A stretch of DNA of 64,000 nt from Amanita rubescens. Its lineage: Eukaryota > Basidiomycota > Agaricomycetes > Agaricales > Amanitaceae. Below the pieces are notes generated by a model, which saw nothing but the letters and a program-made list of their open reading frames with translations, made no database searches and was not told the origin of the DNA. The position numbers and the translations under genes were made by a program. Positions 1 through 61,881 of the stretch are shown here, piece by piece; the first letter of the stretch is position 1, and each line of letters starts with the position of its first letter. The stretch spans positions 620,001 through 684,000 of the forward strand of contig WION01000014.1 of the NCBI GenBank assembly GCA_015039365.1, given 5' to 3'.

Positions 1-455
1 TAAGTCCAACAGACAAGTCAAACAATAGGTGAACAAATAAGCTAAGTGATAAGACGACTAGAAGGAGTCTTATCCTTGAGAGCGATAATGAACGGAGTAG
101 AAACGACGTTCTTTAGGCGAGATAAGGTGTGATATTGATAAAGACAAGCTAAGTCGAACTTAAGGTTCGACGTTACAGTACATCGGTTTATATACATGTA
201 CAGGAACACAGCCATATCGTAAGTAGAACAAGGGCGATAGCAAGTATAGGTAAAACAAGGGGCATAGGGGATGGTACGCATATGAACAAGGGGTTGGGCA
301 TAGGGTAAACGGAATGGGGATCGATAAGGGAACGAGGTAGTCCGTTTGATGAACATAATGGAGATGCGACGAAGGGGTAGGCATAAGCAAGAAAAGTAAG
401 CATGTCCGACGTGTCATGTAATCATAATGTAGGAGTCCGTACCGTGTTTGTAACA
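1..455 (-). repeat. 3' LTR of the chromovirus, truncated by window edge
   Basis: Positions 1-455 repeat at 7776-8230 with two mismatches. The inner end on the element strand begins TGTTACAAAC at 455. About 105 bp of its other end lies outside the window. Both mismatches are G here and A in the other copy, each within a CG dinucleotide. Confidence 0.93.
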
Positions 456-583
456 CTAGCTCTCCTCTACGTTGTTGACCGCAACAACACTATGCGGGTA
501 TCCTCTAGGTGTCGAGGTTGTGGCGGGCGTTTTCATCGTCGTAAGGATGATAGCCGGCTGAGTTGTCGACGAAGACGGCGAAG

Positions 584-961
584 TCATTCGTCTTGGTTCC
601 ATCCTCCTGCGTTCCAGTCGGTGGGTGTGTCCGTGTACATTTGGACGAGTTCCTCGTTGTTGGCCTCAAGCGAGTTGAGGAGTTTGTGGAGAACCTTGAG
701 GCGTCGGTTCTCTTCTTTGAGGAGCTTGATGATGCGCTCCTTTGATTCGTCATCGGGACGAGGGACTGTTGGCAGTAGGGATGTGGCGGCGAAAAGCCGG
801 ACGTGGGACTGGTAGTGAAGGAAATCCAAGATTTCCTGGTGAATGCGGGCGAGACGTTCTCGACCGTCGAAGGCGCCGATGCTGAAAGCGGTGGGGGTGG
901 AGGCCGATGTGGCGTTGGAGACGGCGGGGGTCTGTTGGGTCTGTTCTGCGTTCCCTTCCAT
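584..961 (-). CDS. Second post-pol ORF, coiled-coil-like protein, 125 aa
   Basis: No family recognised. The first ATG on this strand is at 961, two bases after the stop of the preceding 418-codon frame (964-966), so the two are packed like a coupled pair. The N-terminus is rich in Thr, Ala and Gln. The middle and C-terminal part is a charged amphipathic helix (runs such as ERIIKLLKEENRRLK), which suggests a short coiled coil that could drive oligomerisation. It ends about 130 bp from the 3' LTR, the position an env gene would take, but there is no signal peptide or membrane segment. Coding is inferred from length, composition and its placement in a young element. Confidence 0.5.
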   Translation of the reverse strand: MEGNAEQTQQTPAVSNATSASTPTAFSIGAFDGRERLARIHQEILDFLHYQSHVRLFAATSLLPTVPRPDDESKERIIKLLKEENRRLKVLHKLLNSLEANNEELVQMYTDTPTDWNAGGWNQDE

Positions 962-963
962 AG

Positions 964-2220
964 TCAATAAAGGTTATGTTGGGGAATGAGTGAGCGTCCG
1001 AGGTTCTTAAACCTTTCAGCGGTCTGGGTGACAGGCGTGGAAGGTATAAGATTCTGATGGAGATCTAATTCCATCATGACATGGGCAACTTCTTCATAAG
1101 CGTTGTGAGAGAGTTGCTGCGGTTTAGCTCCTTTGGTAAACAGATCTTCTGTCCATGCGGTAGTTCGTCTAGATGATTTGGCGATCTCCTTGATTTGATC
1201 TGCTAGATCGGCTAGGGCGATTGCTCCAATCTCGGTCCTATTTGTGAGTTCCAAGATATGCTGTGCGTCCGGTGCGATCCTGTGAGAGTCAAAGCTGTGG
1301 TGGATGGCAACGAGATCGTTGGGATCGTCATTAAGGATGAATGGAGGGTGTATTTCATTTCTGACGTCTAAGATGGCTTGTTCGTAGAAGCGTTCTACGT
1401 CAGCGGTGAGGATTCGGCGTAGTAGGTCGATTCCGAATTGGTGGATGGTGCATCCATGGGAGAGTTTGGTGTACCATTCCATACGATCTAAGTTGGTCCA
1501 GATTTCTATAAGATCTGCGCAATGATAGTTGTATCGTTCTCGAGCGTTGACGATGATTGCCTTGGCAAGTCTTGCATCTGAGAGAATGCGCCAGAGTCTG
1601 GTAAGTCGTTCCAGTTCCTGAGAATTGATTGACAGGCTGGAAAGTCTTTTAACGTCGTCAATAGTCTTTCGCATAAGAGCTGAGCTGTTATAGTCTGCAA
1701 ATGTCGTAAAGATCGTCTGAGGTTCAGAGGGAGTGATGTCTGCCATGATTCGATGACTGCTAGGGCTAGCTGGGTTGTTATCATCGCTTCTGTCACGAAG
1801 ATCGCCAGTTGATTCCTTGTCGAATTCGGCAAAAGAGTCGGGGTTATGATATACCTTTCGCATGTTATCAAGTATTTTCCTAGCTCTTCTTGTATCTTCA
1901 TTATGTCCTCTGTTATCTTGATCTTCTGTGGAATCGTGAAGACTCGTAGCTCTGCTTGTTCTGGGTGAATCATCGAGTTGATTCTCTTTGTCAGAATCTG
2001 AAGCACTGTGATAAGGAACGAGACGTGGTCTATTGGGTTCGGCGATCGTCGTCTTTCTGCTAGCATCCTGATTACTGGATGTATTGGGGGATTTGGCGGT
2101 GGTGGTGGTGTTGTCGTCGTTGTCTGGGTAAAGACTGAGTATATGGGCGGTTCCGGTGATGGTGCTCTCGTCGTTGTTGGCGAGATTGTCGGTGAGGTTC
2201 TTGTTGATTCCATGATTCAT
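964..2220 (-). CDS. First post-pol ORF of chromovirus, 418 aa, unknown function
   Basis: No known domain recognised. The frame begins with ATG at 2220, 40 bases after the pol stop (2261-2263), and runs 418 codons. The first third is polar and low-complexity (Asn, Asp, Ser, Thr). From about residue 180 on it is mostly helical, with hydrophobic heptad-like spacing and many Arg and Glu. A second chromovirus in this window (24895-28949) carries a comparable long frame in the same place, so the post-pol ORF looks like a feature of this lineage rather than an accident. Another 235-codon frame overlaps it from an ATG seven bases downstream. It has no transmembrane segment or signal peptide, which argues against a classical Env. 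A role as an accessory structural or nucleic-acid-binding protein is only a guess. Confidence 0.55.
   Translation of the reverse strand: MNHGINKNLTDNLANNDESTITGTAHILSLYPDNDDNTTTTAKSPNTSSNQDASRKTTIAEPNRPRLVPYHSASDSDKENQLDDSPRTSRATSLHDSTEDQDNRGHNEDTRRARKILDNMRKVYHNPDSFAEFDKESTGDLRDRSDDNNPASPSSHRIMADITPSEPQTIFTTFADYNSSALMRKTIDDVKRLSSLSINSQELERLTRLWRILSDARLAKAIIVNARERYNYHCADLIEIWTNLDRMEWYTKLSHGCTIHQFGIDLLRRILTADVERFYEQAILDVRNEIHPPFILNDDPNDLVAIHHSFDSHRIAPDAQHILELTNRTEIGAIALADLADQIKEIAKSSRRTTAWTEDLFTKGAKPQQLSHNAYEEVAHVMMELDLHQNLIPSTPVTQTAERFKNLGRSLIPQHNLY
1506..2213 (-). CDS. Overlapping +1-frame ORF inside the post-pol ORF, 235 aa
   Basis: This frame starts at an ATG (2213) only seven bases after the ATG of the 418-codon frame and stays open for 235 codons in the +1 frame. 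Its composition looks like a protein: a Pro/Thr-rich N-terminus, then a long helical part with regular Leu, Ile and Ala. Two close ATGs in different frames is the arrangement used for leaky scanning in dual-coding viral genes. A third frame in the same stretch opens at 2260, directly after the pol stop (TGAATG), and runs 62 codons. Whether any of them is translated cannot be decided from the sequence; one of the two long frames may be a shadow. Confidence 0.35.
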   Translation of the reverse strand: MESTRTSPTISPTTTRAPSPEPPIYSVFTQTTTTTPPPPPNPPIHPVIRMLAERRRSPNPIDHVSFLITVLQILTKRINSMIHPEQAELRVFTIPQKIKITEDIMKIQEELGKYLITCERYIITPTLLPNSTRNQLAIFVTEAMITTQLALAVIESWQTSLPLNLRRSLRHLQTITAQLLCERLLTTLKDFPACQSILRNWNDLPDSGAFSQMQDLPRQSSSTLENDTTIIAQIL

Positions 2221-2260
2221 AGGTGGTTTCTGGGTGTTTGTGGGTGTAATCTTTGCTCAT

Positions 2261-5200
2261 TCAGAGTCTCCTACGTTTCTTATATTCGTCAAGGATATCC
2301 TCGGCGTTTGATAAGTTCTTTTGGGGTTCCCAAGTGTTTTCGCTTGTATCATAGCCTTTCCATTTGACGAGAAACTGTAATTGACGTCCGATCTTTCGGT
2401 GTGCGAGAATAGCTTCTATTTCGTATTCTTCTGATCCTTCTATTAGATCAGGCGGTGGACGTGTGTCGTTAGGTCCATGGAATTCTGTTTCTTTGAATGG
2501 TGACAGTAGACATGCGTGGAAAACGCTGTGTATCTTCCATTGTTTCAGTAAGTCTAGCTGATAGGTGACAGGTCCTAAGACTTTCTTTATCTTGAAGGGT
2601 CCTTCTCGTTTAGGTGCGAGTTTGCGTGATTGATAAGGAATGCGTAGGTTCTTTGAATCTAGCCAAACCTTTTCTCCTTCTTTGAATGGTTTAGAGTGTT
2701 TCATCGTTCGTTGTGCCATTTTGAGGCGTGCAAGGTCGTGTGCTGCCAGAGCTTCTTCTCTTGCTTTGATCAGGAGCCTGATGCGTTCGTCTGCTACAGG
2801 GGTAGCTGACTGTTCTGTAACCTGGGGTAGCGCCACAGGGTTAGATCCATACATGAGATAGAACGGTGATTGTTTCAGTTCTTCATGCGTTCTAGAATTA
2901 TGAGCGAATTGTGCGATAGGAAGTATCTTATTCCATTTGTCCGGTTCATAGGCACAGAATATGCGGAGGTATACTTCAAGTACGGCGTTATAGCATTCCG
3001 TTTGACCATCTGTTTGAGGGTGAAAGGCGGTGCTCATTTTATGTTTGATCTGAAGTGCGCTAGTTATCCCTTTGAAGACTTTTGCTGCGAATTGCGGTCC
3101 TCTGTCAGATATCATAATGTCTGGTAAACCGAAGTTCTTGAATACTTCTTTAATGTAGAGGTCGGCGGTTTCAGCTGATGTAATAGTTTTATTACAGGGA
3201 CATAGAATTACTCCCTTTGAAAGTCCTTGGTCGACCACGACAAAGATAGAATCAAATCCGTCACTAGTTGGTAGATCGGTGATGAAATCCATAGTAATCT
3301 GTTGAAATGGTCGGTGAGCATGGGATTTAATCGGCATTAGGGGTGCGGCGGTGGGATGCGTATTAGGTTTCATCTGTTGACAGGTAAGACATCCGTCGAT
3401 AAAACTTTTGACAAGTGTTGTCATTCTAGGCCACCAATAGTGTTCCCTTAGTAGGCTAAGTGTTTTGAAGAATCCAGGGTGTCCTGCACTTGGTGCTTCA
3501 TGGTATTCTTTAATAATAGATCGGCGAAGATCGGAGTCCATTGGAACGTATGCCTTATTTTTAAATAGGATGATTCCGTTATCTTCGGTCCAATCGGTGA
3601 TTGCTGTGCGGAGGGGTGCTGTTCCTTTCTCCTTTAAGCATCTTCTAATGGTTTCAGCAAATTCATCGGTTTGAGTTGCGTTCTTCACTTGATCTCGGAG
3701 ATCTTCGGCGATGACTTGAATGAATAATGAGTCAGGGAGCATTGTGACTGTTTCGTCATCTTCTTCTCCGTTAGTGTGATCAGGTCGGCGGGATAAGGCG
3801 TCCGCTTGAGTTAGTTTTGCTCTGGGTACATGAATTAGTTGGTAATTATATCTTGAGAGATTATTCCACCATCTTGCTTGTCTAGCTGTGAGACGTTGTG
3901 GTGCGCGGTAATAGGTTAAGTTTTTGTGATCGCAGTGAATAGTGAGTGTGTGTTCTGCTCCAAGCAGTAGGTATTTCCATTCGTCAAGGGCGTAAATTAT
4001 GGCAAAGAGTTCTCTGTCGTAGATTTGCCAATTTCGTTCAGTAGGCGTAAGTGCGTGTGAGAGATATCCACAAGGGTGTAAGTCTCCGTTTTCGTCTTTC
4101 TGCATTAAGGCGGCTCCGACAGCCCATTTAGATGCGTCCGTTTCGAGTATGAAGGGTTGATTGACATCTGGCATCTTTAGTACTGGTGCTGTTACGAAAC
4201 TTTCCTTTAATGAGTCGAAGGCGACTCTACATTCTAGTGTCCATTCCCATATCTTGTTTTTCTTCGTTAAGTCGTGAAGGGGTCGTGCGAGGTGCGCGAA
4301 TCTGGATATGAAACGTCTGTAGTAATTTCCAAATCCAAGAAACGAGTGTACTTGTTTAACTGTTGTCGGAGGGGGCCAGTCTCTGATTCCAGCGAGTTTT
4401 ATTGGATCCATTTTTATCGTGTCTTTCGTGATTATCATGCCTAAGAAGTCCACTTCCTCGGCGGCAAATTTGCATTTTTCAAGTTTCAGGTAAAGATCGT
4501 GTTCTTTTAATTTTGCGAGTACTAGCTTTGTTCTTTTCTCGAGTTCTAGTTTGTTGCGCGCGTGTATCAAGATGTCATCCATGTAAATGGCGATCCATCC
4601 TTCGTTCATGAAGTCCCTGAAGTAATCGTCCATCATAGCTTGGAATGTTGCTGGTGAATTGCGTAATCCGAAGAACATAACTGTCGGTTTGAATAGTCCT
4701 TTGTTTGTGATAAATGCGGCTTTCCATTCGTCTCCTTCTTTGATACGAACATTGTTGTATCCCCATCTGATGTCTAGTTTCGTAAAGTATTGCGATCCTT
4801 TAAGTTGTAGCATCAGATCGGATATGAGTGGTAAGGGGTATGAGTTTGGTTTCGTATGTTCGTTCAAGTATCGATAGTCTTGGCAGGGTCTGAGTGTTTT
4901 GCTATCTTTCTTTTCGACATAAAAGAATGGTGCTGCCTGCGGAGATTTGGATGGTCGTATATATCCTTTAGCTAGTTGTTCTTTGATCCATTTGTCAAGC
5001 GTATTTTGTTGTAATGGTGATATTGGGTAGATCTTCCCTTTCTTTGGTATAAAATCTTCGCGAAGTTCAATTGCGTGATCCCATGATCTACGGTCTGGGA
5101 ATCGTTCTGACGCTTGTTTTTCAAATATCTCTTTCCATTCGAGATACTCAGGAGGTAGCGTGATTTCCTTCTGATCGGTGTTGTACTTATGTTCCATTTG

Positions 5201-5878
5201 TTGAGCTGGTGAATAGCGATTAATCGTGATCTCGTCATAATCTTCTTCTGTCCATCTTCCTATGTCTTCAAATGGTGGTTTCCAATGTAGACTCTTCTCT
5301 TCTGGTCCTTTGTGTGACAACAAATACCGAATTACGACGTCTTCTTCCCATTTAGGCATTGCTTCTTCATCGAGTCGATGCAAGATGCTCCGTATTGATG
5401 CCTTCCATTCGTCTTCTTTGGAGTTACGGAACTCCAGAGTTCTATTCCTCCAGCTTATGATTGGGTCATGCTTCTTGAGCCACGGAAGCCCCAGTATCAA
5501 GTTTTGATCTCCAAGCGAAGTGACCAAGAACCATTCGGTCATCTTCTTTCCATTGATATCGATGGTGATCAAACACTTGTCAGAAATTTCTCCATTCGTG
5601 TTGTATGTGCCGTCAACGTTCTTGACTCGGATCGGTCTTGCGAGTTTCTTCTTTCTCCATTTATGCGCGATTGATGAATTAATAAATAAACCTTCTGCAC
5701 CGCTGTCGACCAGTGCAGTCATTGATTCAGTGTTGTCTTCGGTTTCAACTTCGAGAGGAATAGATAATCGATTGCTTGAAATAGAACGTACTATTACAGG
5801 TGATATCGAAAGATCGTCCTTTGGAGTTGAATCCGAAGTTATGGGACAGGCATCCACTGACATGTGTCCCACTGTCAA
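2261..5878 (-). CDS. pol: Pol polyprotein of chromovirus: PR-RT-RNaseH-IN-chromodomain
   Basis: About 1,205 codons without a stop. Domains in order: aspartic protease (DSGAEG near residue 57), reverse transcriptase with the YMDD active site near residue 431, RNase H (ETDASKWAVGAAL), integrase with an HHCC finger (C-L-T-C followed by QQMKPN) and a DDE core (TMDFITDLP, ISDRGPQF), then a C-terminal chromodomain (EYEIEAILAHR, FLVKWKGYD, NTWEP). The chromodomain is thought to guide integration to modified histones. The frame lies -1 relative to gag. Its upstream limit is a TAA about nine bases before the TTG at 5878, so the gag-pol overlap is tiny. No ATG is present at the start, so translation by frameshift at the T5 run or by reinitiation is inferred. 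All catalytic motifs that I can see are intact. Confidence 0.93.
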   Translation of the reverse strand: MTVGHMSVDACPITSDSTPKDDLSISPVIVRSISSNRLSIPLEVETEDNTESMTALVDSGAEGLFINSSIAHKWRKKKLARPIRVKNVDGTYNTNGEISDKCLITIDINGKKMTEWFLVTSLGDQNLILGLPWLKKHDPIISWRNRTLEFRNSKEDEWKASIRSILHRLDEEAMPKWEEDVVIRYLLSHKGPEEKSLHWKPPFEDIGRWTEEDYDEITINRYSPAQQMEHKYNTDQKEITLPPEYLEWKEIFEKQASERFPDRRSWDHAIELREDFIPKKGKIYPISPLQQNTLDKWIKEQLAKGYIRPSKSPQAAPFFYVEKKDSKTLRPCQDYRYLNEHTKPNSYPLPLISDLMLQLKGSQYFTKLDIRWGYNNVRIKEGDEWKAAFITNKGLFKPTVMFFGLRNSPATFQAMMDDYFRDFMNEGWIAIYMDDILIHARNKLELEKRTKLVLAKLKEHDLYLKLEKCKFAAEEVDFLGMIITKDTIKMDPIKLAGIRDWPPPTTVKQVHSFLGFGNYYRRFISRFAHLARPLHDLTKKNKIWEWTLECRVAFDSLKESFVTAPVLKMPDVNQPFILETDASKWAVGAALMQKDENGDLHPCGYLSHALTPTERNWQIYDRELFAIIYALDEWKYLLLGAEHTLTIHCDHKNLTYYRAPQRLTARQARWWNNLSRYNYQLIHVPRAKLTQADALSRRPDHTNGEEDDETVTMLPDSLFIQVIAEDLRDQVKNATQTDEFAETIRRCLKEKGTAPLRTAITDWTEDNGIILFKNKAYVPMDSDLRRSIIKEYHEAPSAGHPGFFKTLSLLREHYWWPRMTTLVKSFIDGCLTCQQMKPNTHPTAAPLMPIKSHAHRPFQQITMDFITDLPTSDGFDSIFVVVDQGLSKGVILCPCNKTITSAETADLYIKEVFKNFGLPDIMISDRGPQFAAKVFKGITSALQIKHKMSTAFHPQTDGQTECYNAVLEVYLRIFCAYEPDKWNKILPIAQFAHNSRTHEELKQSPFYLMYGSNPVALPQVTEQSATPVADERIRLLIKAREEALAAHDLARLKMAQRTMKHSKPFKEGEKVWLDSKNLRIPYQSRKLAPKREGPFKIKKVLGPVTYQLDLLKQWKIHSVFHACLLSPFKETEFHGPNDTRPPPDLIEGSEEYEIEAILAHRKIGRQLQFLVKWKGYDTSENTWEPQKNLSNAEDILDEYKKRRRL

Positions 5879-7620
5879 AAATCCGGTTTATCTGCATTGA
5901 TAAGGAGGTTGATACGTTGATCTGGAGAGAGTTTCTTTAACATAGCGCGTATCGTTCTGTCGCTAGTGTCTTCTTCTTCTTCTTGTTCTTGCTGGCTAGA
6001 CTCTTCGACGTCTTCATAGTTACTGCCATCGTCATCCCTTTCGGTTGCTCGAATATGACGACCGTGTGCGAATTTCTTTCCTTTCTTTCCATTAAACTTC
6101 TTCTTTCCTTTGTAAGATCCTTTATCCTTCCTCATGGGGCATTGTCCTGACATGTGGTCCGGTTTGTGACATATGAAACAAAGTCCATCGCGGATATGTC
6201 GGGTTCGTTCATCCTTTGATAGCACGCCAAGAATTATTGCATCGAGATCCATATCCCATTCGTTTTGAGGGGGTTTGTGTGAAGATGTTCCTCCTCTGTT
6301 GGTCGCTAGAATGCCAATACGTGTTTCGGCGTTGTATGCTCTGAGTGCTCCTTCATACCATTCGTCCAAGGTTTTGGGGTCTCTCATTACGACTGCTCTG
6401 TATGTGTTGGCGTCGAGTCCTTGTCCGAACATGTGGGTAGCGGCACTGCCTGTAATTCCAGCTTTCTTTATTAGTTCTTTGAATAAACCAACGTATTTTG
6501 GGATTGAGATTCGTTTTCCTTTCTTGTCTTTGCGTTTTTGTAGCTGTACTAATTCTGTGTACGCGTTTCTGGGTGAATCTATTTCTTGCCAATTGTTGAG
6601 GAATCTGGTTTTGAATCCTGTCCAGTCGTTCCATGTTATTTCCGTCTTTGCTGCATCGTTAAGATTGTCGTTTTGATTGCGTCTCCAGTTCTCAGCTTTG
6701 TCCGTTATCATAGATAACGTTAGTCCGATTTTAAGTCTGTCCGTGTTAATGCGACCTGGATTGAGATCTAGGAATAGCTCCATTCGATCTATGAAGTCCT
6801 GTGCTTGAGATCGCTTTCCTGTGAAGGTAGGGATTTCTCCTAAGAGACTCGGAATCGGTTGTATTGCTGGCGTTGTCATTGTAACTGTCGGTGGTTCTGG
6901 AGGTGGTGTAGGCGGTTTCTGTGGTGGTACTGGTGGTCCTGGACTAGGATCAGGTTTAGGATCGACTTCTATGTACTGAAGTCCTGGGGAATTTGGTTTC
7001 TCCTGTTCTGTCTCAAACGGGTTGAAATCGATTGGGCTAAGTAAGTCTGGAACAGTTTTGTCTTCTGACTCGGAAAGGTCACTGGAACTTTCGAATTGCT
7101 GATCGGGGTTTTCGTCACTTGATTCGGTTCCTGATTCGCTTTCTTGTGTTACTCCAAAAGTTTTACCTTTTGGTGTAGTTTTGACTGCTGCTTTCGGTGT
7201 AGAGACTGCGCTTCTGTGCTGTAAGTTTTCGGGCAAGTTATCTGGGTTTCCTTCTATCCACTTGGGTCCTTTGAAGAAATCGTCTGGTACGAATTCGTAT
7301 GTGAGTTCTGATTCAGGGCCTGGGTTATATCCTCCCCAACGTTTGGTATTTTCGTCGAATTCGACTTCAAATCCTAAGAGGTAGTATTTGTCGTTGAACC
7401 GATGATAGAATGCGTTGTTGGGTGGTCTGTTGGCTCTCTGTGGTATCCAAAACTCTGATGTTGGTACGAGACTGTGGTCTTTCGAATATTTCCAAAGGTG
7501 GTCCTTAGGGTCGTTGTAGATAGCGATGTGATCTAGATAATAATGTCCTCTTGTTCCTCTTGTAGCACGGTTAGGCGGTGTCCTCTGTTGATCCGTAATT
7601 GTTGCAGGCTGACCGGTAAC
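5875..7620 (-). CDS. gag: Gag polyprotein with zinc knuckle; no clear ATG start
   Basis: The frame is open from just after a TAG at 7621-7623 to the TGA at 5875, 581 codons. The core (from about 6870 down) resembles retrotransposon Gag: a helical capsid-like part (FTGKRSQAQDFIDRMELF) followed by a CCHC zinc knuckle (CFICHKPDHMSGQC) and a basic then acidic tail. The N-terminal 240 or so codons are clearly protein-like (Pro-rich, acidic Ser/Glu repeats, aromatic-rich start) yet contain no ATG; the first in-frame ATG is at 6879. Either Gag starts there, or translation starts at a non-AUG codon, or an ATG in the leader is joined by splicing (the TAG at 7621 could itself be a 3' splice site). The last gag codons overlap the start of pol. 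Confidence 0.85.
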   Translation of the reverse strand, partial: VTGQPATITDQQRTPPNRATRGTRGHYYLDHIAIYNDPKDHLWKYSKDHSLVPTSEFWIPQRANRPPNNAFYHRFNDKYYLLGFEVEFDENTKRWGGYNPGPESELTYEFVPDDFFKGPKWIEGNPDNLPENLQHRSAVSTPKAAVKTTPKGKTFGVTQESESGTESSDENPDQQFESSSDLSESEDKTVPDLLSPIDFNPFETEQEKPNSPGLQYIEVDPKPDPSPGPPVPPQKPPTPPPEPPTVTMTTPAIQPIPSLLGEIPTFTGKRSQAQDFIDRMELFLDLNPGRINTDRLKIGLTLSMITDKAENWRRNQNDNLNDAAKTEITWNDWTGFKTRFLNNWQEIDSPRNAYTELVQLQKRKDKKGKRISIPKYVGLFKELIKKAGITGSAATHMFGQGLDANTYRAVVMRDPKTLDEWYEGALRAYNAETRIGILATNRGGTSSHKPPQNEWDMDLDAIILGVLSKDERTRHIRDGLCFICHKPDHMSGQCPMRKDKGSYKGKKKFNGKKGKKFAHGRHIRATERDDDGSNYEDVEESSQQEQEEEEDTSDRTIRAMLKKLSPDQRINLLINADKPDF

Positions 7621-7669
7621 CTACGGGCCGGTTCTCCGGAAGTTCGATAGTTATCTTGTGTTTCACCAA

Positions 7670-8230
7670 TGAGGTAATACTCGGGTATCGTTTTGATAAG
7701 TTCGACTTAATTGTTATGATCACGTCGATCTCCACCTACGATGCGTCCACGCTAAGAGCGCTTGACAAAGTAGACTAAGTCCAACAGACAAGTCAAACAA
7801 TAGGTGAACAAATAAGCTAAGTGATAAGACGACTAGAAGGAGTCTTATCCTTGAGAGCGATAATGAACGGAGTAGAAACGACGTTCTTTAGGCGAGATAA
7901 GGTGTGATATTGATAAAGACAAGCTAAGTCGAACTTAAGGTTCGACGTTACAGTACATCGGTTTATATACATGTACAGGAACACAGCCATATCGTAAGTA
8001 GAACAAGGGCGATAGCAAGTATAGGTAAAACAAGGGGCATAGGGGATGGTACACATATGAACAAGGGGTTGGGCATAGGGTAAACGGAATGGGGATCGAT
8101 AAGGGAACGAGGTAGTCCATTTGATGAACATAATGGAGATGCGACGAAGGGGTAGGCATAAGCAAGAAAAGTAAGCATGTCCGACGTGTCATGTAATCAT
8201 AATGTAGGAGTCCGTACCGTGTTTGTAACA
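7670..8230 (-). repeat. 5' LTR of the chromovirus, with primer binding site beside it
   Basis: The 561 bp LTR reads TGTTACAAAC inward from 8230 on the element strand and ends in CA at 7670. Directly inside, the element strand reads TTGGTGAAACACAAG, a PBS-like sequence beginning TGGTG. The same kind of sequence (TTTGGTGTCACGAG) sits beside the copia LTR near 60111. The boundary at 7670 is inferred from the TG/CA rule and this PBS, since the partner LTR is cut at position 1. Confidence 0.85.
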
Positions 8231-8378
8231 GAAGAGATTTCCGTGCAAAATTCAATTTGGGGCACCATTTTCCGTGGAGAGACAGTAAATCGTCGCAGGA
8301 ATTTACTTCTTCTATCCTCGGAGGTGTAGAGTAGTGATAGGTGTTTGTTCCTTCCGAAAGCGAACATTTCTGACGTGG

Positions 8379-8706
8379 TGTAACAACGAAACGGAGGTTG
8401 CGTTGGGTGCAACCTCCGAGGCTCGGTGTTTGCTGAGCGAGTTCGGCAGCACCGAAAGGTGCTCGTCCGAGTTCGGTCTCACTCTCGGGGCTCGGAAACG
8501 TAGAAGTGAAGTGCGGGGGAGGAAAAGAATGTATAAAGAACTAACTATGACAATCTATATACTGTGTACCTCGTGTACTACGTGCGCTACTCGGTCCGAG
8601 ACGTATCCGATGCCGAGGTTGGGGGTCCGAGGTGTCGGAGGTCCGAGTCCGGAAGACGGAAGGGTTTCAGTATCGATTCCAGCATAGCCGGAATCGATAC
8701 GTTACA
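8379..8706 (+). mobile_element. Probable solo LTR inside the hairpin locus
   Basis: A 328 bp block starts TGTAACAACG and ends CGTTACA, an inverted terminal signature usual for fungal Ty3/gypsy LTRs. It is flanked by GTGG (8375-8378) and GCGG (8707-8710), a four-base target duplication if one CpG has decayed. A 10 bp stem with loop lies just before the end (TATCGATTCC, then GGAATCGATA). The last about 50 bp resemble the end of the solo LTR at 14076-14472, so both probably come from one LTR family. A TATA-like AATGTATAAAG occurs near 8528. Confidence 0.55.
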
Positions 8707-9400
8707 GCGGCATGAGCGAGAACCAGTCTTCTGAACGTTTTGACGAGGGTGCGCGTCGAAATTCGACGTTCCTTCCATGTTTGGAAGTTCGTGACGGGGT
8801 GTGACCGACCAGAATTCGAGGGAGGCAGCAGGCATTCTCAAATGGGGTAGATGGGGATTTCGACTAGTGGAGAGATGCCTTCGTATATAGACTTCACTCA
8901 GAACAAGGTTGAAGTCTTGAGATCAAAACAGTGGGTCGATAAGAATGTTTGAAGCTTGGGCGCGTCGGCGTTGGTGTGACTTCCGGATAAGGAAGGTCGC
9001 GGGTTGCCTGGGTCTTCATGGTCGTAGTGTGCTGTACTTCAGCACATGGTTGAAGGGGCATTGGGAGCTTCCCAACGTGAACTTCTGGCAGCATCCAGCC
9101 GCCTGAGCGAGGTCCAAGCCTCGCTAGAATTGGGCGTGACGAGCGCTCAGCGCGCGTCGGGATTTCGACGAGCCTTCCAGATTTGGAAGGTCGGTGATCA
9201 TGTGACATGCGACTCGCGTCTAGTCTGTTTATCGCTAGGGGTCTCCCCAGAGATAACCGCGATGAAGGGAGCTCCAACCGACTGGAGCTCATCAGACGAT
9301 ACGGTAACGGCTACAAGAGCCATCTGGATTCCTTCGTGGTTTGAAATCGGGAGAACGAGAGAGAGGGGGACAGGGCGACCGTGTGTAGTGGGTATGCAAG

Positions 9401-12400
9401 GTAAGCTCCTCGTCTCCAGGCTCCTTTCTTCTTCGTTCCTGAGCCACTGACCGACCACGACACTCATACTAGGGCTTGGATGACTTCAATGTGATAGCGC
9501 GCTGTGGATAGGAAAAGGGGATGAGGTGGCGTGTAGGCGACGTGCGCTACTCGATCGCGAGTAGTTAGATGAATTCTCCCCCACAGAACGTGTTCTGGGG
9601 AGAATGGGGTGGTCTGGATGCCGGGTGAGTTCCAGGCATCTTTCCTGTCGACGCGGTGACTGATTTCTTCATATAGGTGTGCATACCAGCTGTTTCACGA
9701 GGGTTTGGTCCCTCATGCGTTTCGACAGAAGCGGAACGGGCTCAGCAACAGCCCGTGTGTTGTCTTCAATGGGGAATGAGCTAGATGGATGCCAGCGACG
9801 GATGGGAGTGGGCGAGACGGGACAGGGATGAGGACTTCGGATGGTAAGTCCTTCCTCATCTAATTCTTCCGTTTTCTCGCTAACTGTTTGTAACGCTGTC
9901 GTACAGGCACAGTAGACCTTGAACAGACCGATGTGAATGGGGAGGCTCGAGCTAGAGTCTTTCATATGCTTTGGAGAGTTCATTGAAACTCTCCAGCACT
10001 TTTGGAGATCCCGAATGATCGACTATGACTTGTCGCGAGTCTCTTCCCCACAGAAAAGGAAATTCCGGTGGAGATGGCTGTTGGGATTCTCGGGATAGTT
10101 TCCCGAGGGTACAAGCATAGTAGGTAAGCCTACTACATCCGTAATGGTGATGTTGAGTTACTGACGATGTTGGTATAGCATCATCTTTTATCCATCATTC
10201 GGTCAAACCAGTCGACGAAATTAAGAGGGAGACGGGAGCGGGATACTTTCGAGACTAGGTAAGTCTCGTCTTCCAGCTTTCCATCCTCGTATTGACAACT
10301 CAATGACGTTGGTGTGGATTCTCAGGTAGACGGATTAGATGGGAGGACTAATACTGGTCCTCAAGAGTGTTTCCAAGGCCTGGACGAGATGTCGGCCTCG
10401 AGGTTAGGACTTTGCATTGACCTCTCGTTTGTCAACCATGTGTAAATCAAGCAATAAGGGGTCACGAGTGCAGGAGAAAGGGATAGAGACTACCAACCGG
10501 TAAGTCTTCTTCCTTTCATTTTCCTGTACTTTTATTAACTGCGGGACATGCTAGATACGGTATTCCCGAGTACGCGAATGTCCAATGAACGGTTGGAAGA
10601 CCTAATGGTGAGTCTTCCGTATGTTTTCAGAGAGTTTGATTTAACTCTCGGTTGATTTATTATTTTTAAAGCGAATCGTGTTTGACTCGCCAAGTCCTTT
10701 CCCCTTCAAATGAAGAGAGGTAGATTAAGTGTTCGGAGATGAGTCTCCGTTGTCGTAATGATTAAGTTGATTAATTAGGTGAGTTGTATGTCAACTCGGA
10801 TTTAGTAGTTTCTGATAGATATCTTCATAATTTACAGATTTACAAGTTTGAAGGACTCGGAATCACGGTGAAGCCAGCAACGGACGAGACGAACGAGGAT
10901 ATTGACAACGCGGAGATTCCGCGCGACGCTCGTCGGTTAGGGAGTGACCCGACTCAATCATTGCTTCAGCCTCGGTACCAGGATCGTCTCCGAGCACAGA
11001 TATTGATTTGGGCGGCATCGTTTCCGCCCAGAGTAAAGGTGAGTCGTATTCACCAATGCTATTTGTTTTATTGACGACATCATAGTTCTGTCGTCTGTGA
11101 TTAACCGCTACGTTGGGCGGTTTGTAACGGGTGCGCCAAACGCCTTCGACGCAGGTGGAATCAGAAGCTTCCGCCCACCACAAGGTCTTGGGCAGAGGTG
11201 TGGATAGCTCGTTTGCTATCCATGATGATGGTGAGTGTCTCGATACACTCGGATCGACGTTTGTATTGACAACGTCATCGTTACATTGTCTAGTTGTGAC
11301 TGCCGAGTCTGGTGGCTTACAACGAGCTCGCCATGAAAATTCACTACTTCCACGACGGCAAGGGATGTTGACTGGATGACCAACGGGTTTGGGAATAGGT
11401 GGAATCAGTTCCACCTCGAACTTCGGTGAGTGCCTATTGGTACTCGGGCTGAGTGTTGAGCTGACGACATCACAGGGATATCGTCGGAGCGAAGAGGACC
11501 AGTCGAGTTCGTTACTCGACTGTGTTGAAGACCTAACCAGTTGACGCAACACGCTATTCAACTGGGTCGTTGGAAGGGGCAGCACGGGATTGGTGAACAC
11601 CGATAAGGGGATCGACACGGGAACCGTGCAAAGTGCGGGTGAGTGCAGGCTTTCACTTATTCCAGCAGTTTCACTGACGATGTCTAGGACTCGTCGTCGG
11701 GATGAATTAAGACAGTCAGGGACACAGCCCAACTGTGTGAGGTGTTGGAACAGCTGATGCGATTCGAAGGAAATGTCCTTCAGCTGGTGAGGTGAAACGG
11801 CCTGCGTAGGGAGGGCAGCTGTATGCGTGAGTGGTGCGAGGACCATACAAGGATCAGGTGAGTGCAAGTCGCTACTCATTTCCTTGTCATTGACGGTGTG
11901 TGGATCTCGCAGCTGCTCTTCAGCCTCGTTATGTTGTTTCAAGACTTGAGGATCATCTCCAGCACGTTCCTCAGCATTGACAGCCTCAAGATGCTTTTCC
12001 GAGCGACTTTCCGAGATCTCAGCATGGGAGATTTCCAATGTAGATTCAGGATGGTGTGGAACCGGTTTCGAACAGGGAATAGAGAGCTCCTTGACTCTCA
12101 GGGTGATAAGCTGCTGAGGAGCAGCTTTGGGCCGTACTGGAGGGGATTCGGAATCCTCGGGTTCAGATTCTGGTGAGCGTGAGTTCACGCTCGCGTCTAT
12201 TCCTTTCCTAACGAAGGACAGGGCTTCGTCACAAGAGGATGAGGATTCAACCATCTTATCCGATGGACCCTTTGGAGGACGACGAACGGTTTCGTCGCAA
12301 TCGAGTGAGCGTCTGCGTTTGCGTTCTTGAACGTACGCCGCAGCGCTCGCTAAGTACCTTCCTTCTGAAACTTCAGAAGGACTGTTGTCGGGTTTAGACT

Positions 12401-14915
12401 GTCTTCGAACAGTCTCGGAGTTCCGTGAGTGTACTTCACTCACTGTTGATCTTTTATTGACGACGTTTAGATGACGTTGTCTAGTCACCACCTCAATAGA
12501 CAGCTTGGACTCGTCCAATGTTTGACGAACAAGCTCTGCTTGTCTGGGATGGATGGGAGAGGTAGCAGGAGCAGTGACGGATAGTGTGGACGCTACCAAA
12601 GCATCAGGTGAGGATACTTCCTCACTTATGTGCTGTTTACTGACGACGGTGGCGTCATAGACCCGCCGTTTCTCCCCCAACTCAATTGGAAGAAGAGAAC
12701 TTTGGACCTGTATGTCAACAAGTCCAGGAGCAGACGTAGAGCACTCGGTTGTGCTCTCTTGAGACATTTTGAGAGGCAATAACACGTTCCTCTCGATTTC
12801 AACAGTTCGTTCAGACTGTTGTGGTCCTTTCGCAGCAAGTACGAACAAAGTTTTACCAGTCTGCATATCTGCAGCTGACTCCGGGACTTTGGAACGAGTT
12901 TCGTTCCTTCGGTGAGTAATATTGACGACGCGAGATTCACGTCATTTAGAAACACGAGGGGGAGACAGGATTAGCTCGTCCTGGAGCGGCAAAGAGGGAA
13001 CGGCCGGTATTGGAGAGACCGGAGAAGGTTTTGATACCAAGGAGGCTTCCTTGGTAAAAGGTACGCGTTCCAGAGAACTTGCTAATTTCTCCGTACTAAC
13101 GGTTGCGTTTCCGACTCTTTGAAGCTTCAATTCGGATGTGGTTGTCCTGCTAAGCGGGATCTTCAAGTTTCGACGAGCAGTGTCATTGTAAACGGAGGAG
13201 CGTCGAGTTGTACACTCCTGAGCATGTACCACAGCTTTTGCAAGTAGCTTTCCTTCCGAAGGTTCAGAAGGAGTTATCAGGAGTTTGGACTGCTTTCAAG
13301 CGGTCCTAGGGAGCGGTGAGTACACGTTACTCACTCTTGAAGCTTTGCTGATAGCGTTCAGGTCACGACGTCGTGATACCACCTCAACAGGTGGTTTATC
13401 CTCACACACGGGTTCACCAGAGGGTTCTAAGTGAACAGAGAGGACAGGCGAGATGACAGGAACGGGGACTGGCAGTGCTAAGACTGCCACGTCATCAGGT
13501 GAGGAGATTTCCTCACTTCCTCTCCGTACGCTGACAACGCTGTAGCCACATTGTCTCAATACTACCTCAACAGGTGGTGAAGCATCGTTTGGTAATTGAC
13601 GATGAGGTGTACCGCAGGCGGGAGGGGCAGGTGAGGAAGCTTCCTCGTCCTTATCGCTGAGAGTAGTAATGTTGACGCGTACCAGGTCATGTTGAACTGG
13701 TACTAGTGTGAGCTCGTTCGGAGGTACGTGAATGGGTGCGACTATGAATGGAGGGATCGCCGAGGCCGCAGAAGGCGGCGAGGAGGCTGCAGTAGCACAA
13801 AGTGAGGAGTTTTCCTCACTTTCTCGTCGTATGGTAACAACGGCGTCGTTTCTTTTAGATACCACCTCACGAGCGGATTTGGGCATACTCGTGGATTGAC
13901 GAAGGGATGCAGGTGGTGACGAGTGAACAGCAGGTATGGGAATAGACAGCATGACGGTTGCGGGATCTTTTGGTGAGGAAACTTCCTCACTATATCTCTG
14001 TATATTGATAACGGCATAAGAATCCTGCCGTTTCTCCCCCATTTCACTCGAAAATGAAGGAATATGAACGGGCGCTGAAACGATCAGAAGAAGGCCGATG
14101 CGGAACTGCGTTCGGCCAAAGGGGCTTCGGAGGTCAGTCCTGGGGGTGCCTCGGAGGCAGAGAGAGTGCCGAAGGCGAAGGTGAACGAGTGGAAGGTGTC
14201 CGAAGCACTGAGGAACGAAGGGAACAGAAGGAATTGAACTCGGAACGCAGATGGGGTGATAATTTGCTAACTACAACTATGTACACAATGGTATATATAC
14301 TACGGAGGCACGAGGTGACCATGTGATGAATCCTGTGCCGAGTCCGAGGCCTGTGCATGCGTCCAAACACAAACGATCATCCTCCAGGATCGAGCATAGG
14401 CTCGGAGTGCTTCGGGGAGCTTCGGAAGGTTTCAGAGATCGGTTCCAACATAGCCGGAATCGGCTCGTTACAGCGCGTTCATAAGTGCAAGAATATCAGA
14501 CGAGCATGGTGGATGTTCTGTCGGGGTGTCGGGAAGCAAAGGTGAAATTTCCTTTGCTTTTACGGCTTGTATTGCATGTACTGACTCTCGTTCTGCAGGT
14601 GGATCACCAAACCACGGGTTTCCGGTTTGGCTTAGAGCTCTTCGACGAGCTTCAGCAGTATGGTGAGTAATCTTACTCACTATTGACTTCGTGTTGACAA
14701 CACGAGGTTCGCATCGTTTAGGAAGCCACGAAGGCGCGAGGATTAGCTCATCTTTGAGCAGAACAGGAGGGTTGGCCTGTATAGAGGAGACGGGCAAAGA
14801 TTCCGACAGCGAGGGGGCTGTCTCGGCCAAAGGTGCGTAATCAGCTGCGCTCTCTCGTTCCTTCATGCTAACTGTCTTATTTCCAATTTGAAACTTCAAT
14901 TTGGATCCAACACAG
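9401..14915 (+). other. Ladder of about 25 intron-like GT-AG units on the plus strand
   Basis: At regular spacing the plus strand shows GTRAG(T) donors, a branch-like YTNAC about 15-25 nt before an acceptor AG, and sizes of 38-72 nt, as in fungal introns. Examples: 9401-9472, 9625-9676, 9844-9906, 10124-10178, 10259-10325, 10500-10554, 10608-10671, 11039-11085, 11231-11293, 11426-11475, 11639-11687, 11858-11912, 12425-12470, 12608-12660, 13061-13124, 13316-13371, 13499-13545, 13803-13858, 13974-14020, 14664-14721. Some have a fine pyrimidine tract (10500-10554). Donors usually lie within a hairpin (AGTAGGTAAGCCTACT at 10121) and acceptors often in the loop of another. The intervals between them, 53-260 nt, hold stops in all frames where I checked, so a spliced product would be non-coding. 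Splicing itself is inferred. Confidence 0.45.
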
Positions 14916-15886
14916 GGGCCAGGAGCACAACGCGCGACGGCAGCAACAACTCGAGACTTTGATGAAGATCCGACAACTCCAGTGCTTTTGTCCGGAAGCT
15001 TCCGGACAAGTATGGAGGGCTCCAACACAGGCAGTGGTATACGCTTATCACGCGTATTGGATTTCCGAGACGGCGTATGAGAGACGGACGATTCCGTCTT
15101 CTTTGATGATTCTGAAGGAAGCTTCCTTCGTGAATCTAAGCCACGAGCTATTGCTGGCTCGTTGGACTTTCTCGGTGAACTCCTCTGGAGCTCACGAGAT
15201 GTGAGAGTGGAGTCTGGCTTCAACGAGCTCGGACGCTCTTGAGTATGAGTCACTTGAACTTGTCTCGGGGTGTTTCGAGACTCAAGGGTCGAGTCTCCTG
15301 TTCCACTAGCATTGTTAAGTACTCACAAGGAATCTTCCCTGCGAGTCGCTAGTTGCGTTTCACTCACGGGCTTACGGGGTTCCAGCCAATCAGACTTAGG
15401 TTGACTCCGGGTTGGAGTCTGGCCGAGGCGACACGTTTCGATAACGGGAGTCACTGTGCTTTCCCCAGGTGACTTAGAGGTTCTCAGAACCTCCCGTTTC
15501 ACTCGAGGAGCATGAGTGGCCTTAAACCGTGTAGCGTCGCGTGAAACTGACTGAGTGCTTGAGTTGTGGGACGAGCCGAACGTATGCTCGTCCGTGTGAG
15601 TTATTAACTCAGAGGTACTGACGCTCGTTGCGCGTCGTGATGAGCGTGAGGCAGTGGGAGCCTCGGTCTTCACTTTCGTCGAAGGTTTTTCGATGTGTTG
15701 AGTTGAGTTGATGCCCGGGATGGACTTCCCAGGTGTCCGTGTGTGTTCGTATGCTGAGCCTATCAATCGGCTCAGCCTGAATCCGACGGACGGTCTCGCT
15801 AAGAGCGGATTCGGGTATGGCAGGTGTCTGGAGCCACGAAGTGCTCCAGGCGAGTTGAGCCTCGTGTTACAGAGCTCCTTGGGCAT
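10863..15886 (-). pseudogene. Long repetitive Ser/Pro-rich reading frame broken by TGA codons
   Basis: On the minus strand one frame runs from 15886 to 10863. After removing the solo LTR and one target copy (401 bp) it keeps phase and gives about 1,541 codons, interrupted only by TGA at 15323, 13296 and 12942 and ended by TGA at 10863. The protein is built of diverged repeats: a basic stretch, then VVN or VVS, then a Ser/Glu run ending in SP (for example SEEVSSP), and longer modules such as DELILSPPRVSK matching DELILAPSWLPKR. Aligning repeats shows that the TGAs at 13296 and 12942 stand where Arg CGA is found in the other copy. No domain or family is recognised. The VVN codons are the complement of the branch-like motif and the SP codons of the donor on the other strand, so the two readings are entangled. 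Confidence 0.5.
14076..14472 (+). mobile_element. Solo LTR inserted in the hairpin locus, with 4 bp target duplication
   Basis: A 397 bp block runs from TGAAACGATC to CTCGTTACA and is flanked by GCGC on both sides (14072-14075 and 14473-14476). Removing the block and one GCGC copy rejoins the minus-strand reading frame exactly and restores a module (APVHIPSF...MGEKR) that parallels the repeat near 12,690 (LPIELGEKRR). Its final 50 bp share the stem-loop and ATAGCCGGAATCG motif with the solo LTR ending at 8706. Confidence 0.75.
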
Positions 15887-16599
15887 TGGCTATGCCCGGG
15901 ATTCGTATTTGGGTGTTGGTAAACTCTTCTGGGACTTGTAGATTGATTCGTGTACTTGTCTTCGAGAATACCAGAGATTTTCAACTCCAAATGAAAGTTG
16001 ACAATGGCACGGCTGCACAACAACAGTGGTTGTGCAAAAAAGTGTAAAGTGGGTAGGTTGGGATAGAGGTTGATAGCTTGTATATGTTCGAACGCACAGT
16101 GCACAGGACCAAATGTATTGGGTGAGCCGTGCTAGTGTGTGCGTAGACGAAGTAATAGTGGGCTCATTATGTAATGTGTCAACGCGTGAATATCAAGTCA
16201 CACGTGACTTGATCTATATACAATATATCTATGGGAGTTGTTCCACAACTCCCCGGTCTTCAGGCTTGGAGATCCTCTGGATCTCCATATCCATGAATAT
16301 CCATCTGGGTTCCAGGATGCTCTTGTAGCTTCCTTACACAGAAGCAGCTGAGCAAGTCAAGCCTGTGCGACATGTCTTACTCAAGGTATGTTCTCACCGC
16401 TTCTGAGTCTAGGCCCTTGTCTCAGCCTTCTTATCCCCATCACCTTATCCATGCAATCTTATTTGTAAATGACCCTCTATTTTGTACATGGTCCAGCATT
16501 GGCGGTCCTATCTTGCCTGATCTTCAACACGTTTTCCTCGGTGCCCACATTTCCAACATCTGCCAGCTACACAAACTAGCATATGCCATAAAAAACTCG

Positions 16600-17290
16600 A
16601 CCACTATAGTAGCTCTACCTTGATGGAGGGAGATCGTCAAAGAGCTGGGAAAGACAAATCCCAAGATAAGCAATCGCATGATGCCACGGGACATCTGGAC
16701 CCGATGGAATTCAACCTTCGACATGCTTCGGTTTGCATACACCTATCGCAATGCCATCAATAAGCTCACTGGTTTGGAGCACGCCCTGAACCTCCAAGAC
16801 TATGAAGTGGGAGAGAGCAAATGGGAAATAGTCAGGCAACTATGAAACATCCTTAAGGTCTGTAACTACAAATCCCATGTCGGTGCCTATGTATCTCACG
16901 AGTTGTCCAGAGTTTTAAACTCATGACCCTCCAGTTTTCTACCAATACTCCATGCCCTGCAGCTGTAATCCCCACAATGGACTGAATGCATGAAGAATTG
17001 ACCACAGCTGCCAATAATCTGACCGTAATGCTGGCGCTTGGAATTGGGAAGAAATTACTCAACAAGTACTACTCGCTGATGGATCATTCTGATGTTTATC
17101 GTATATCTGTTGGTAAGTCTCTATCTTTCATGAGGTCTTCAGAAACTCAAGCCTCGGACGATTTAGTTCTTCATCCCCACTACAAATTGAAATATTTCGA
17201 GAAGCAAGAATGGGACTCAGATTGGGTGAAGACTGCCGAAAATATGAATTTTGCTGCTCATATGTATGCTAACTATGTGATAAAAAAGCT
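16600..17290 (+). pseudogene. hAT-family transposase relic, C-terminal half
   Basis: Conceptual translation shows the hAT C-terminal region: PRDIWTRWNSTFDMLRFAY, then KWEIVRQL and NILKV, later LNKYYSLMDHSDVYRISV and HPHYKLKYFEKQEWDSDW, which resembles the dimerisation part of fungal hAT transposases. An intron at 17113-17166 (GTAAGT...TTTAG) joins YRISV to VLHPHYKL in frame, as expected for this family. The reading frame is broken by stops and shifts around 16845 and 16920-16990, so the copy is dead. An upstream open stretch (16372-16620) may belong to the same gene but is not clear. No terminal inverted repeats were identified. Downstream lies a minisatellite. Confidence 0.7.
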
Positions 17291-17392
17291 GTCTGCTCCA
17301 CCAATAGTGGCTACAATGCGTTATCAAAGAATAGGGATTTATTGGGAACCCATTCGTGTTATCTATGGTGGGTCTTTCAATAACCTGGGTAG

Positions 17393-17740
17393 CTTTCATT
17401 TCATTAGTTTTCATATCCCCCCCAGGGAACCTCCTTTCATAACTTTTGGGCCAAGTTTCATTTCATTAGTTTTCATATCCCCCAGGGAACCTCCTTTCAT
17501 AACTTTTGGGCCTTTCATTTCATTAGTTTTCATATCCCCCAGGGAACCTCCTTTCATAACATTTGGGTCTTTCATTTCATTAGTTTTCATATCCCCCAGG
17601 GAACATCCTTTCATAACATTTGGGCCTTTCATTTCATTAGTTTTCATATCCAGGGAACATCCTTTCATAACTTCTGGGCTTTTCATTTCATTACTTCCCA
17701 TGGCCCCCAGGAAATATCCTTTCATAACTTTTGGGCAATT
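17393..17740. repeat. Minisatellite, about six copies of a 56-59 bp unit
   Basis: The unit begins TTTCATTTCATTAGTTTTCA and contains ATATCCCCCAGGGAACCTCC followed by TTTCATAACTTTTGGGCC. Copies start near 17393, 17457, 17512, 17570, 17626 and 17683 and differ by small changes; the last two are the most diverged. The array is open in one plus frame only because no stop falls in the unit. Confidence 0.9.
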
Positions 17741-17756
17741 TGAGTAATTTCCTTTT

Positions 17757-54904: not shown

Positions 54905-57239
54905 ACTTTACCCTCCCCCACGCTTCCTGGCAGGATCCTGGCTGACTCCATGGAATCCACACGGAATCCACATGGATTCCACATGGATTCCTTGCAAAAA
55001 GGAAATTTCTGTGGAAATTCTACCAGGATTCCATGGAGTCCATGTGGATTCCATGCTCAGTCCAGGCACATTCCTGGCAACAGGCAAAACCTGATTTACA
55101 CCTGAATTCCTGGTAGGCTGTCTGGAATCCATGTGGACTCTGTGGATTCCATGTAGCAATATATGCATTAAAAAATATGGAAAAAATTCCAAAAAATATA
55201 GAAAATTCATAAGATCAAACCTATATAAAATTTATTATCTTAGGACATGCATAGAGTCCAAATACCAAGATAGTCCTTGGATCAGTATCAGCTAACCATA
55301 CAAAAGCCACAGACTATTGCTATATGACATTTTGTCATCTATGACTAGCAGTTGGAGTGTGGCAGTGGTTGCTGATGACCTGACATAACATTGCAGAGCC
55401 TCAGAGGTCATGAATAGATGTGAGAAGGTTGTCATGAGGGTTCTGTAATCATGTGGGGGGCTTTGAAATTTGGAGATGACTATCTGGAGATACATTGCTG
55501 AGCAGTTGTTAGCAGAATATTGACAGCTAGTGATCAATGGTGGCTGACATGCCAGCAATTCAAGTTATCAATATGGTCTACCTCATTACCATCACAAGGA
55601 ACCACTTGCAATCACCTGCCACCTCCCTCTCAAACCTACCAGCTTATGCATACCTCCAGCAACCACATCTGTTAGCTGAAAAGGCTGGGCATCTAAGCAG
55701 ACTTTAAGGATCTCAGTTATCAGTAGTACAGAAGTGACCTACTGGATGACCATCAGCTAACACAGCAAAAGTCTGATTGCATCTGATTCTGTCTGACACA
55801 CTGATTGTCTGACTGTGTCTGACTGCCTGACCATCTAAGAGACACTGATGGATGCTGATACACTAATTGTCTGACTATCTGACTATCTGAGAGACACTGT
55901 TGCATAAGTTGTCTGATTGTCTGACTATCTAAGAGGCACTGTCAGCTGCTGATACACTTATTGTCTGACTGTCTGACTGTCTAAGGGGCACTATTGCAAA
56001 CTTGAGGTGTTCTTTCAATATATGTATCCATACTAGTTTTACATAGCCTAGTCTGTCTCATTGTATCACTTGTTGACTAAACCATTGATTTGCCAGATGG
56101 TTCTAGTGTGGAAGCTTAGTAGATTTTGCAAACACACCTGTCAAATGAGGGAAACAACTATGGAGTACTAAGGCTAGGTCCTGATTGTGTTGCAGAAATA
56201 AATACAGTAAAGTTGTGTACACCCCACTACATTATACATATCAGATTGCTGACCACAGGTACATATGTAACAATGCATGTGTCAGCAAAGTAATCAAGGT
56301 AGAGTAAGCAAGGATTGAGGCATGATGAATGAGGAGGCTTGTCTGCTAAGCATGATTGTGTAATGTGGGAGTCCATTACTATAACAGCCACCATTCCCAC
56401 CAAAACAGTAGTTTGAAAATATCTTGTGCTTGGTTGTGTTTTGCACTGCAATTCTTGAAGAGATGTGATCACATAATTTTTGACAATTTTTTGGATTTTT
56501 TCAATTTTCTGTCACATCTGAAAAAGTGTTTTGCAAATATCTCATGTTTGACTTTGTTTGGCACTGTCATTCTTGTATATTCTGAATCACACAATCTAGG
56601 TGCATCTTTTTTGTCACAGTCACATGTCACACACCTCATGTTGTCACAAATTCTATAAAAGGAAATCATATTATCTTATCTGTGATCTTATCTTATCTAC
56701 ATCATCATACGCTATTTAAGCTTACCTAAGCTTACCTATGAGATCATACATATATCTAATCACTATCTATCTATCCAATCTTATCACTCCCCTCCCCCCC
56801 TGTCCTTGAGGAAGGGGGGGGAAGCTGGGGGATATGTGGTACATGCCCTCTCCTTATATACCTGTGGGCTGGCGCACAGACCAAGTGGCCTGTCACATGA
56901 CCATGGGAATCAGGAGTCCATGTGGACTCCTGAGGACTCCTTGTGCTGAAAGTCCTTGTATGTCAGCATTATGCAAACCAGGCAGAAATGTACCTGGAAT
57001 CCACAGAGTCCATGGAGTCCATGTGGATTCCTTGTCACTCCTGTTCCAGGCAAATTCCTGAGATTCCGTGGAATATGCATGGATTCCACATGGATTCCAC
57101 ACGGATTCCATGCACTTTTTTTAGTGTGTTCTGGGCCATTTGGACCATCTTGAAATTGCAAGGAATCCACGTGGATTCCATGGAACTTCCGCATGGAATG
57201 CAAGGAATCCATAAGGAATGAGTGGGGGAGGGTAAAGAC
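54905..57239 (-). mobile_element. TIR element, non-autonomous, inserted in a copia integrase gene
   Basis: The ends are CTTTACCCTCCCCCAC at 54907 and GTGGGGGAGGGTAAAG at 57224. Both ends hold clusters of GGAATCCATGTGGATTCC-like palindromes (54945-55150 and 56995-57215). The interior has an imperfect TGTCTGAC tandem repeat at about 55790-55990, an expanse matching (inverted) the copy at 34091, and a GATA/TATC microsatellite near 56755. No transposase frame is seen. On the right it abuts copia codons (SDQGEVF on the minus strand), while the left flank is not copia, so the copia element lost its 3' part. Confidence 0.7.
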
Positions 57240-61859: not shown

Positions 61860-61881
61860 CACCCCTTCGCTTAGATATCCT

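Follow-up and report, generated by a model that had tools for sequence, protein, structure and literature searches.

The question raised by this locus is why some 8 kb of a fungal chromosome should be paved with short inverted repeats that pair perfectly, and whether selection maintains that pairing. The locus lies at positions 8231-16340 of the window, that is, of the whole 64,000-nucleotide stretch of Amanita rubescens DNA that was analyzed. The original prediction had described it as covered with short perfect hairpins and had suggested running einverted or RNALfold and comparing stem density and covariation with shuffled sequence and flanks. The description was borne out. With loops of up to 30 nt, the locus contains 68 perfect stems of at least 7 bp versus 12.0 in dinucleotide shuffles (mean of four), 29 versus 3.25 of at least 8 bp, and 13 versus 0.75 of at least 9 bp. 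The ratio of stems of at least 7 bp to shuffles is only 1.5-3.4 in seven other segments of the window, the highest value coming from segment 56001-64000, which contains copia ORFs. Mean RNA folding z-scores in 150-nt windows are -1.67 (plus strand) and -1.82 (minus strand) at the locus, -0.35 and -0.65 in 1-8230, and -1.39 and -1.52 in 56001-64000.

All four stem pairs quoted in the prediction were located (12360-12381, 12108-12127, 16192-16213 and 16267-16287). Allowing loops of up to 40 nt raises the count of stems of at least 7 bp to 78, or one per 104 bp, with lengths of 7-11 bp and loops mostly of 0-10 nt; the claimed spacing of about 50 bp would require 6-bp stems to be counted. Nor do all stems change from unit to unit: of 22 distinct EExSS motifs (14 ORF pieces), 21 share the single sequence GAG GAA nnn TCC TCA. 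One hairpin therefore keeps returning as the identical sequence GAGGAAnnnTCCTCA, and these motifs show no covariation amongst themselves. An Rfam search of 7800-16700 gave no matches up to E 0.5.

The locus belongs to an LTR retrotransposon family dispersed in the Amanita rubescens genome and is a single copy of it. A genome search for further copies, also proposed at the outset, found pieces of it at many places, about 70-100% identical, with match counts that are lower bounds (40 of 628 candidates were scored); the comparison set comprised 17 loci, the window copy and 16 others. The element proper spans about 8231-16339, and its sense strand is the minus strand, as indicated by the ORF, the polypurine tract and the primer site. 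The LTR at its 5' end in the sense direction (16043-16339, minus strand) is 297 bp long, has TG..CA ends and is present, complete or partial, at 33 genome places; the partner LTR of the window copy lies outside the window, at C46:619466-619762. Nine of the 17 loci contain two complete LTRs in the stretch taken for each, and eight of these nine carry a 5-bp target duplication: CAGAA in the window copy, ATGAA in L021, TTTCA in L024, CTCCC in L026, ATCTA in L028, TTTTT in L029, CATAT in L032 and GATGG in L033. L025 has two LTRs and no target duplication. Directly repeated LTRs with TG..CA ends and a short target-site duplication are the marks of an LTR retrotransposon, and the junctions at both element ends are conserved, with a purine tract beside the LTRs (before the LTR on the minus strand). 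The two LTRs are 98.65-100% identical in the eight copies with a target duplication (98.65% in the window copy) and 95.3% identical in L025; at 98.65-100% identity the insertions look recent.

The window copy has received insertions of its own. Positions 1-8230 (minus strand) are a Ty3/gypsy element, with gag and pol domains and terminal repeats and not rich in hairpins, which inserted into the hairpin element at its 3' end. What adjoins it (8231-8378, minus strand) is the 3' end of the element body; other copies continue for a further 168 bp and a polypurine tract before the LTR. A solo-LTR-like repeat at 8379-8712 is missing here in most other copies, with a relative elsewhere in L028, and another such insertion of about 400 bp, at 14073-14475, found at many other genome places, is foreign to the element. 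L022 (C383:15000-24900) is a near-identical copy, 98.6% over 8230-10822, that is free of the Ty3 insertion and has the same 12 bases left of the LTR as the window copy; it may represent the empty site on the other haplotype or in a duplicate. Beyond the element, a tandem array of about six copies of a 57-bp unit (17393-17736) lies inside a 253-codon plus-strand ORF (16986-17747) that has no Pfam match.

A single minus-strand ORF is open over 1,517-1,587 codons in six copies (L021, L024, L028, L029, L032 and L033); others have it shortened or broken. In the window copy it is broken into minus-strand pieces of 187 aa (15323-15886, a region open in L021 and L024), 261 aa (14468-15253), 248 aa (13296-14042) and 667 aa (10863-12866), the last of them hairpin-rich and the last three matching no Pfam family. 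The ORF is of low complexity and its product is repetitive and rich in S, P and E. No significant Pfam match was obtained for the full ORFs of L032 (no families) and L029 (one, at E 0.35, with matches up to E 1 considered), neither of which showed a Gag domain. Neither reverse transcriptase nor integrase was found in these two ORFs or in three window pieces, so that the family is probably non-autonomous. The best PDB sequence match had E 0.067, and a low-confidence model of the N-terminal 212 aa (mean pLDDT 62) had 257 PDB fold matches at E up to 10, none of them at E 0.001 or below. No relative of the diverged protein P0010, nor of the copia reverse transcriptase in the window, turned up in viral contigs, and none of window positions 12001-16000 in plasmids. 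The N-terminal part of the ORF, present in one subfamily, is common to the diverged proteins P0008-P0013; P0013 and P0014 are two more diverged ORF relatives in Amanita rubescens, on C121 (94,767 bases) and on a contig of 240,470 bases. Seven hypothetical-protein records of this species apparently correspond to seven of the loci. Protein constraint is weak although the frame stays open, because dN/dS between copies is 0.40-0.98 (mostly 0.5-0.65) and codon positions 1, 2 and 3 outside stems differ at similar rates (14.3, 12.4 and 16.2%). As a guess, the protein might bind RNA or resemble Gag.

The primer site points to where the enzymes could come from. The putative primer-binding site CTTTTTTGCAC (16032-16042, minus strand) adjoins the 5' LTR and lacks the TGG with which such sites usually start, complementing the 3' end of a tRNA; the same sequence is found in several LTR families whose LTRs differ. 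Primer site and LTR together form a 15-base junction that is present 51 times in the genome (its reversed control, never), with 14 occurrences belonging to the hairpin family by position and 37 lying outside it. When the 18 matches of L045, a stretch on C117 encoding an RVT_1 reverse transcriptase (E 1e-20), were set against the junction positions, 12 of the 37 outside junctions had a reverse transcriptase of this kind in matching orientation, 3.8-5.6 kb into the element. Elements with their own reverse transcriptase hence share the primer site of the hairpin family. The C117 element is matched by L044, on C121, where a different LTR adjoins the same junction. We infer that partner elements of this kind mobilize the hairpin family, their reverse transcriptase and particles copying it via the shared primer site. 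L045 itself shows no stem excess (3 versus 2.9), a comparison limited by how poorly its 266 codons shuffle.

Three lines of evidence bear on whether the pairing is selected, the first being its excess over shuffles that hold the coding content fixed. Synonymous shuffles keeping protein, codon counts and dinucleotides (20 each) retained 6.1-9.2 stems versus 32-50 observed, in seven of seven ORFs. With 100 shuffles of each of two kinds, three ORFs had 34, 41 and 46 stems versus maxima of 10-12. The 3' non-coding part shows the same excess, with 16 stems of at least 7 bp versus 2.9 in the window copy (8713-10862, minus strand) and 13-21 versus 2.4-3.9 across 11 rows, amongst which L024/L027 and L031/L032 are near-identical pairs. 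Pairing along the element thus goes beyond composition and protein constraint, the property by which a GORS-like structured genome is recognized.

The second line is the rate of change between copies. ORF and non-coding part were aligned separately, stems were defined in a third copy, and rows that were gapped or below 65-70% local identity were left out of the rate and covariation tests; the copies are related, so that cells are not independent and all intervals given for these tests are approximate. Differences in the ORF amounted to 6.7% in stems (95% interval 4.8-8.6) versus 15.2% in flanks (12.4-18.4), with 11.3% in 5-6-bp stems, 18.4% in mirror repeats and the highest value, 19.0%, in loops. 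Fourfold-degenerate sites followed the same pattern (7.2% in stems versus 16.3% elsewhere). The non-coding part gave 9.1% in stems (6.4-13.1) and 14.6% in flanks (10.1-19.7), intervals that overlap; loops were at 12.4%, 5-6-bp stems were no faster (7.8%), and mirror repeats were also slow at 6.0% (0.017-0.303 as a fraction), a value from three blocks only.

The third line is covariation. A comparison against slid partners was dropped as main evidence because two transitions alone keep Watson-Crick pairing and because the stems came from the compared rows; it was replaced by a comparison, within each stem, of the partner with the other bases of the arm. Given one changed base in the ORF, the partner had changed in 170 of 447 cells (38.0%) versus 11.9% for other bases of the arm (difference interval 0.09-0.41); in the non-coding part the figures were 64 of 279 (22.9%) versus 9.8% (0.045-0.244). 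Covariation was found between copies, and not amongst the repeated EExSS units. The signal lies in a minority of stems, with 16 of 68 ORF stem loci above and 8 below. When 6-bp stems are included, the ORF interval stays above zero, yet 30 stems are above and 33 below, and the non-coding interval contains zero. Between copies of at least 95% local identity the partner had changed for 0 of 59 changes (ORF) and 0 of 27 (non-coding); its share was 20% and 29% at 90-95% identity and 37% and 45% at 65-80%.

We read the hairpins exceeding synonymous shuffles, the slow stems in the ORF and the covariation as selection on pairing, the first of the two causes that had been proposed for the hairpins. The explanation that we favor, at about even confidence, is that this is a young, probably non-autonomous LTR family whose nucleic acid is under selection for many short local hairpins. 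The hairpins would serve to give the genomic RNA a compact form, protected inside the particle, while it is reverse-transcribed, and against host RNA surveillance; it would be their density that matters, and no individual hairpin need matter.

The molecule on which selection acts is less sharply indicated. After background correction, one-sided changes in the ORF give a ratio of G-U to A-C of 1.29 (0.86-1.93); for the non-coding part the ratio is 0.73 (0.32-1.33). Amongst helices that span at least 8 positions and contain a single mismatch, 41 have G-U and 37 have A-C, where Markov sequences give 6.3 and 13.3, so that the sense strand leans mildly towards G-U. G-U is not clearly preferred over A-C and both strands fold equally, which leaves selection at the RNA level no more than plausible. 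The same two observations are what Watson-Crick pairing on either strand predicts, and the pairing could instead be selected on DNA, either in the single-stranded cDNA within the particle, for example for compact cDNA or strand transfer, or in the double-stranded copy as cruciforms. This we consider rather unlikely, though to be taken seriously. The mild G-U lean argues against it, the neutral G-U result is also expected if both RNA strands are selected, and stable cruciforms seem to need stems longer than the 7-11 bp, with loops of 0-10 nt, seen here.

Pairing could also arise by mutation alone, if template switching in quasi-palindromes during reverse transcription or replication copies one arm onto the other, the second cause proposed at the outset. 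Many perfect stems, short loops and few one-sided changes, whichever mismatch results, are all in keeping with this, and partner changes that are absent between the closest copies and present later also fit a copy-over after a single change. Neutral template switching, however, predicts stems that evolve as fast as other sites, which is untrue in the ORF, where the stem rate is less than half that of other sites, fourfold-degenerate sites included, and is less clear in the non-coding part. The process may contribute, but as the source of the perfect hairpins it is improbable.

That the hairpins arise incidentally from a repetitive protein rich in S, P and E, from composition or from unit duplication, with no function in the nucleic acid, is very unlikely. 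The low-complexity ORF and the one hairpin that recurs as the same sequence speak for it, but shuffling destroys most stems even with protein, codon counts and dinucleotides held constant, the non-coding part is equally hairpin-rich, and slow stems and covariation would not be expected. Introner-like elements, suggested earlier as the nearest idea, or other multiplied introns with stable structure would fit the recurring GTGAGT- and TTGAC-like motifs seen by eye on the plus strand. As the class of the dispersed unit they are ruled out by its minus sense strand and by its being a 7-8 kb LTR element with target duplications; the splice-donor-like motifs lie on the antisense strand, many of them as hairpin arms.

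The apparent selection for hairpins in the nucleic acid of this family raises the matter of other elements, a small sample of which was compared with 20 synonymous shuffles each (stems of at least 7 bp, loops of up to 15 nt). Copia ORFs had 25 versus 6.6 and 10 versus 2.6 stems in L038, 15 versus 3.4 and 6 versus 2.3 in the window (ORFs 56910-58721 and 62321-63850, in L037), 14 versus 5.8 in L041 and 9 versus 3.4 in L042; L040, with 5 versus 2.7, is not clear. Where there is an excess it is 2-4 times the synonymous shuffles, weaker than in the hairpin family. The window Ty3 element (L039) shows none (3 versus 3.0 in its 1208-codon pol ORF, 2 versus 1.1 and 2 versus 2.0), nor does the RVT_1 element L043 (0 versus 1.9). 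Where rows were about 95% identical, 37 of 40 stem comparisons showed the copia stem at a conserved position, as did 6 of 166 between more diverged rows. It is possible, and we suggest it tentatively, that in several LTR lineages here (the hairpin family and Ty1/copia) selection on synonymous and non-coding sites maintains local hairpins along the entire genomic RNA, with positions turning over between families while density is kept. This would be a retrotransposon counterpart of viral genome-scale RNA structure.

Single-stranded RNA phages likewise have coding genomes tiled with short hairpins, in an unrelated replicon. Amongst retrotransposons the closest likeness is to LARDs, non-autonomous LTR retrotransposons of over 4 kb, and to TR_GAG, another such class, as characterized in PMC6696364: LTRs, a putative primer site, a purine tract, a length above 4 kb, no reverse transcriptase found and apparent dependence on a partner. 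Unlike the elements in that account, the hairpin family has kept an ORF of about 1,550 codons open and conserved, one that lacks a significant Pfam match, and carries apparently selected hairpins along its whole length, and, unlike TR_GAG, no Gag domain was detected in its ORF. GORS-type genomes, going by PMC3950689, resemble it in local pairing that runs genome-wide, coding sequence included, beyond synonymous choice and composition; they differ in that the present case is an LTR retrotransposon in a fungal chromosome, with RNA structure inferred from DNA alone and no strand preference found. Yeast Ty3 is also an LTR retrotransposon with a folding genomic RNA, of which, according to PMC11381356, a well-folded core covers about 19-20%, whereas the Amanita hairpins span the whole element; the word "covariation" is absent from the main text of that paper. 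The words "LARD", "hairpin" and "rubescens" are absent from the main text of PMC4122921, on Amanita transposable elements. A literature search, with most subscription journals outside its scope, returned no title or abstract opening describing such an element.

The kind of element is recognizable, an LTR retrotransposon, and its unusual property appears to be a nucleic acid selected for many small hairpins. Selection on pairing along a whole coding genome has already been described for RNA viruses. If it holds here, a young family with many copies would allow one to ask within a single species whether the structure serves packaging, copying or the evasion of host RNA surveillance. Codon choice would then also follow folding in some retrotransposons, and rate tests applied to their ORFs would mislead; several of these ORFs have entries as hypothetical proteins of Amanita rubescens.
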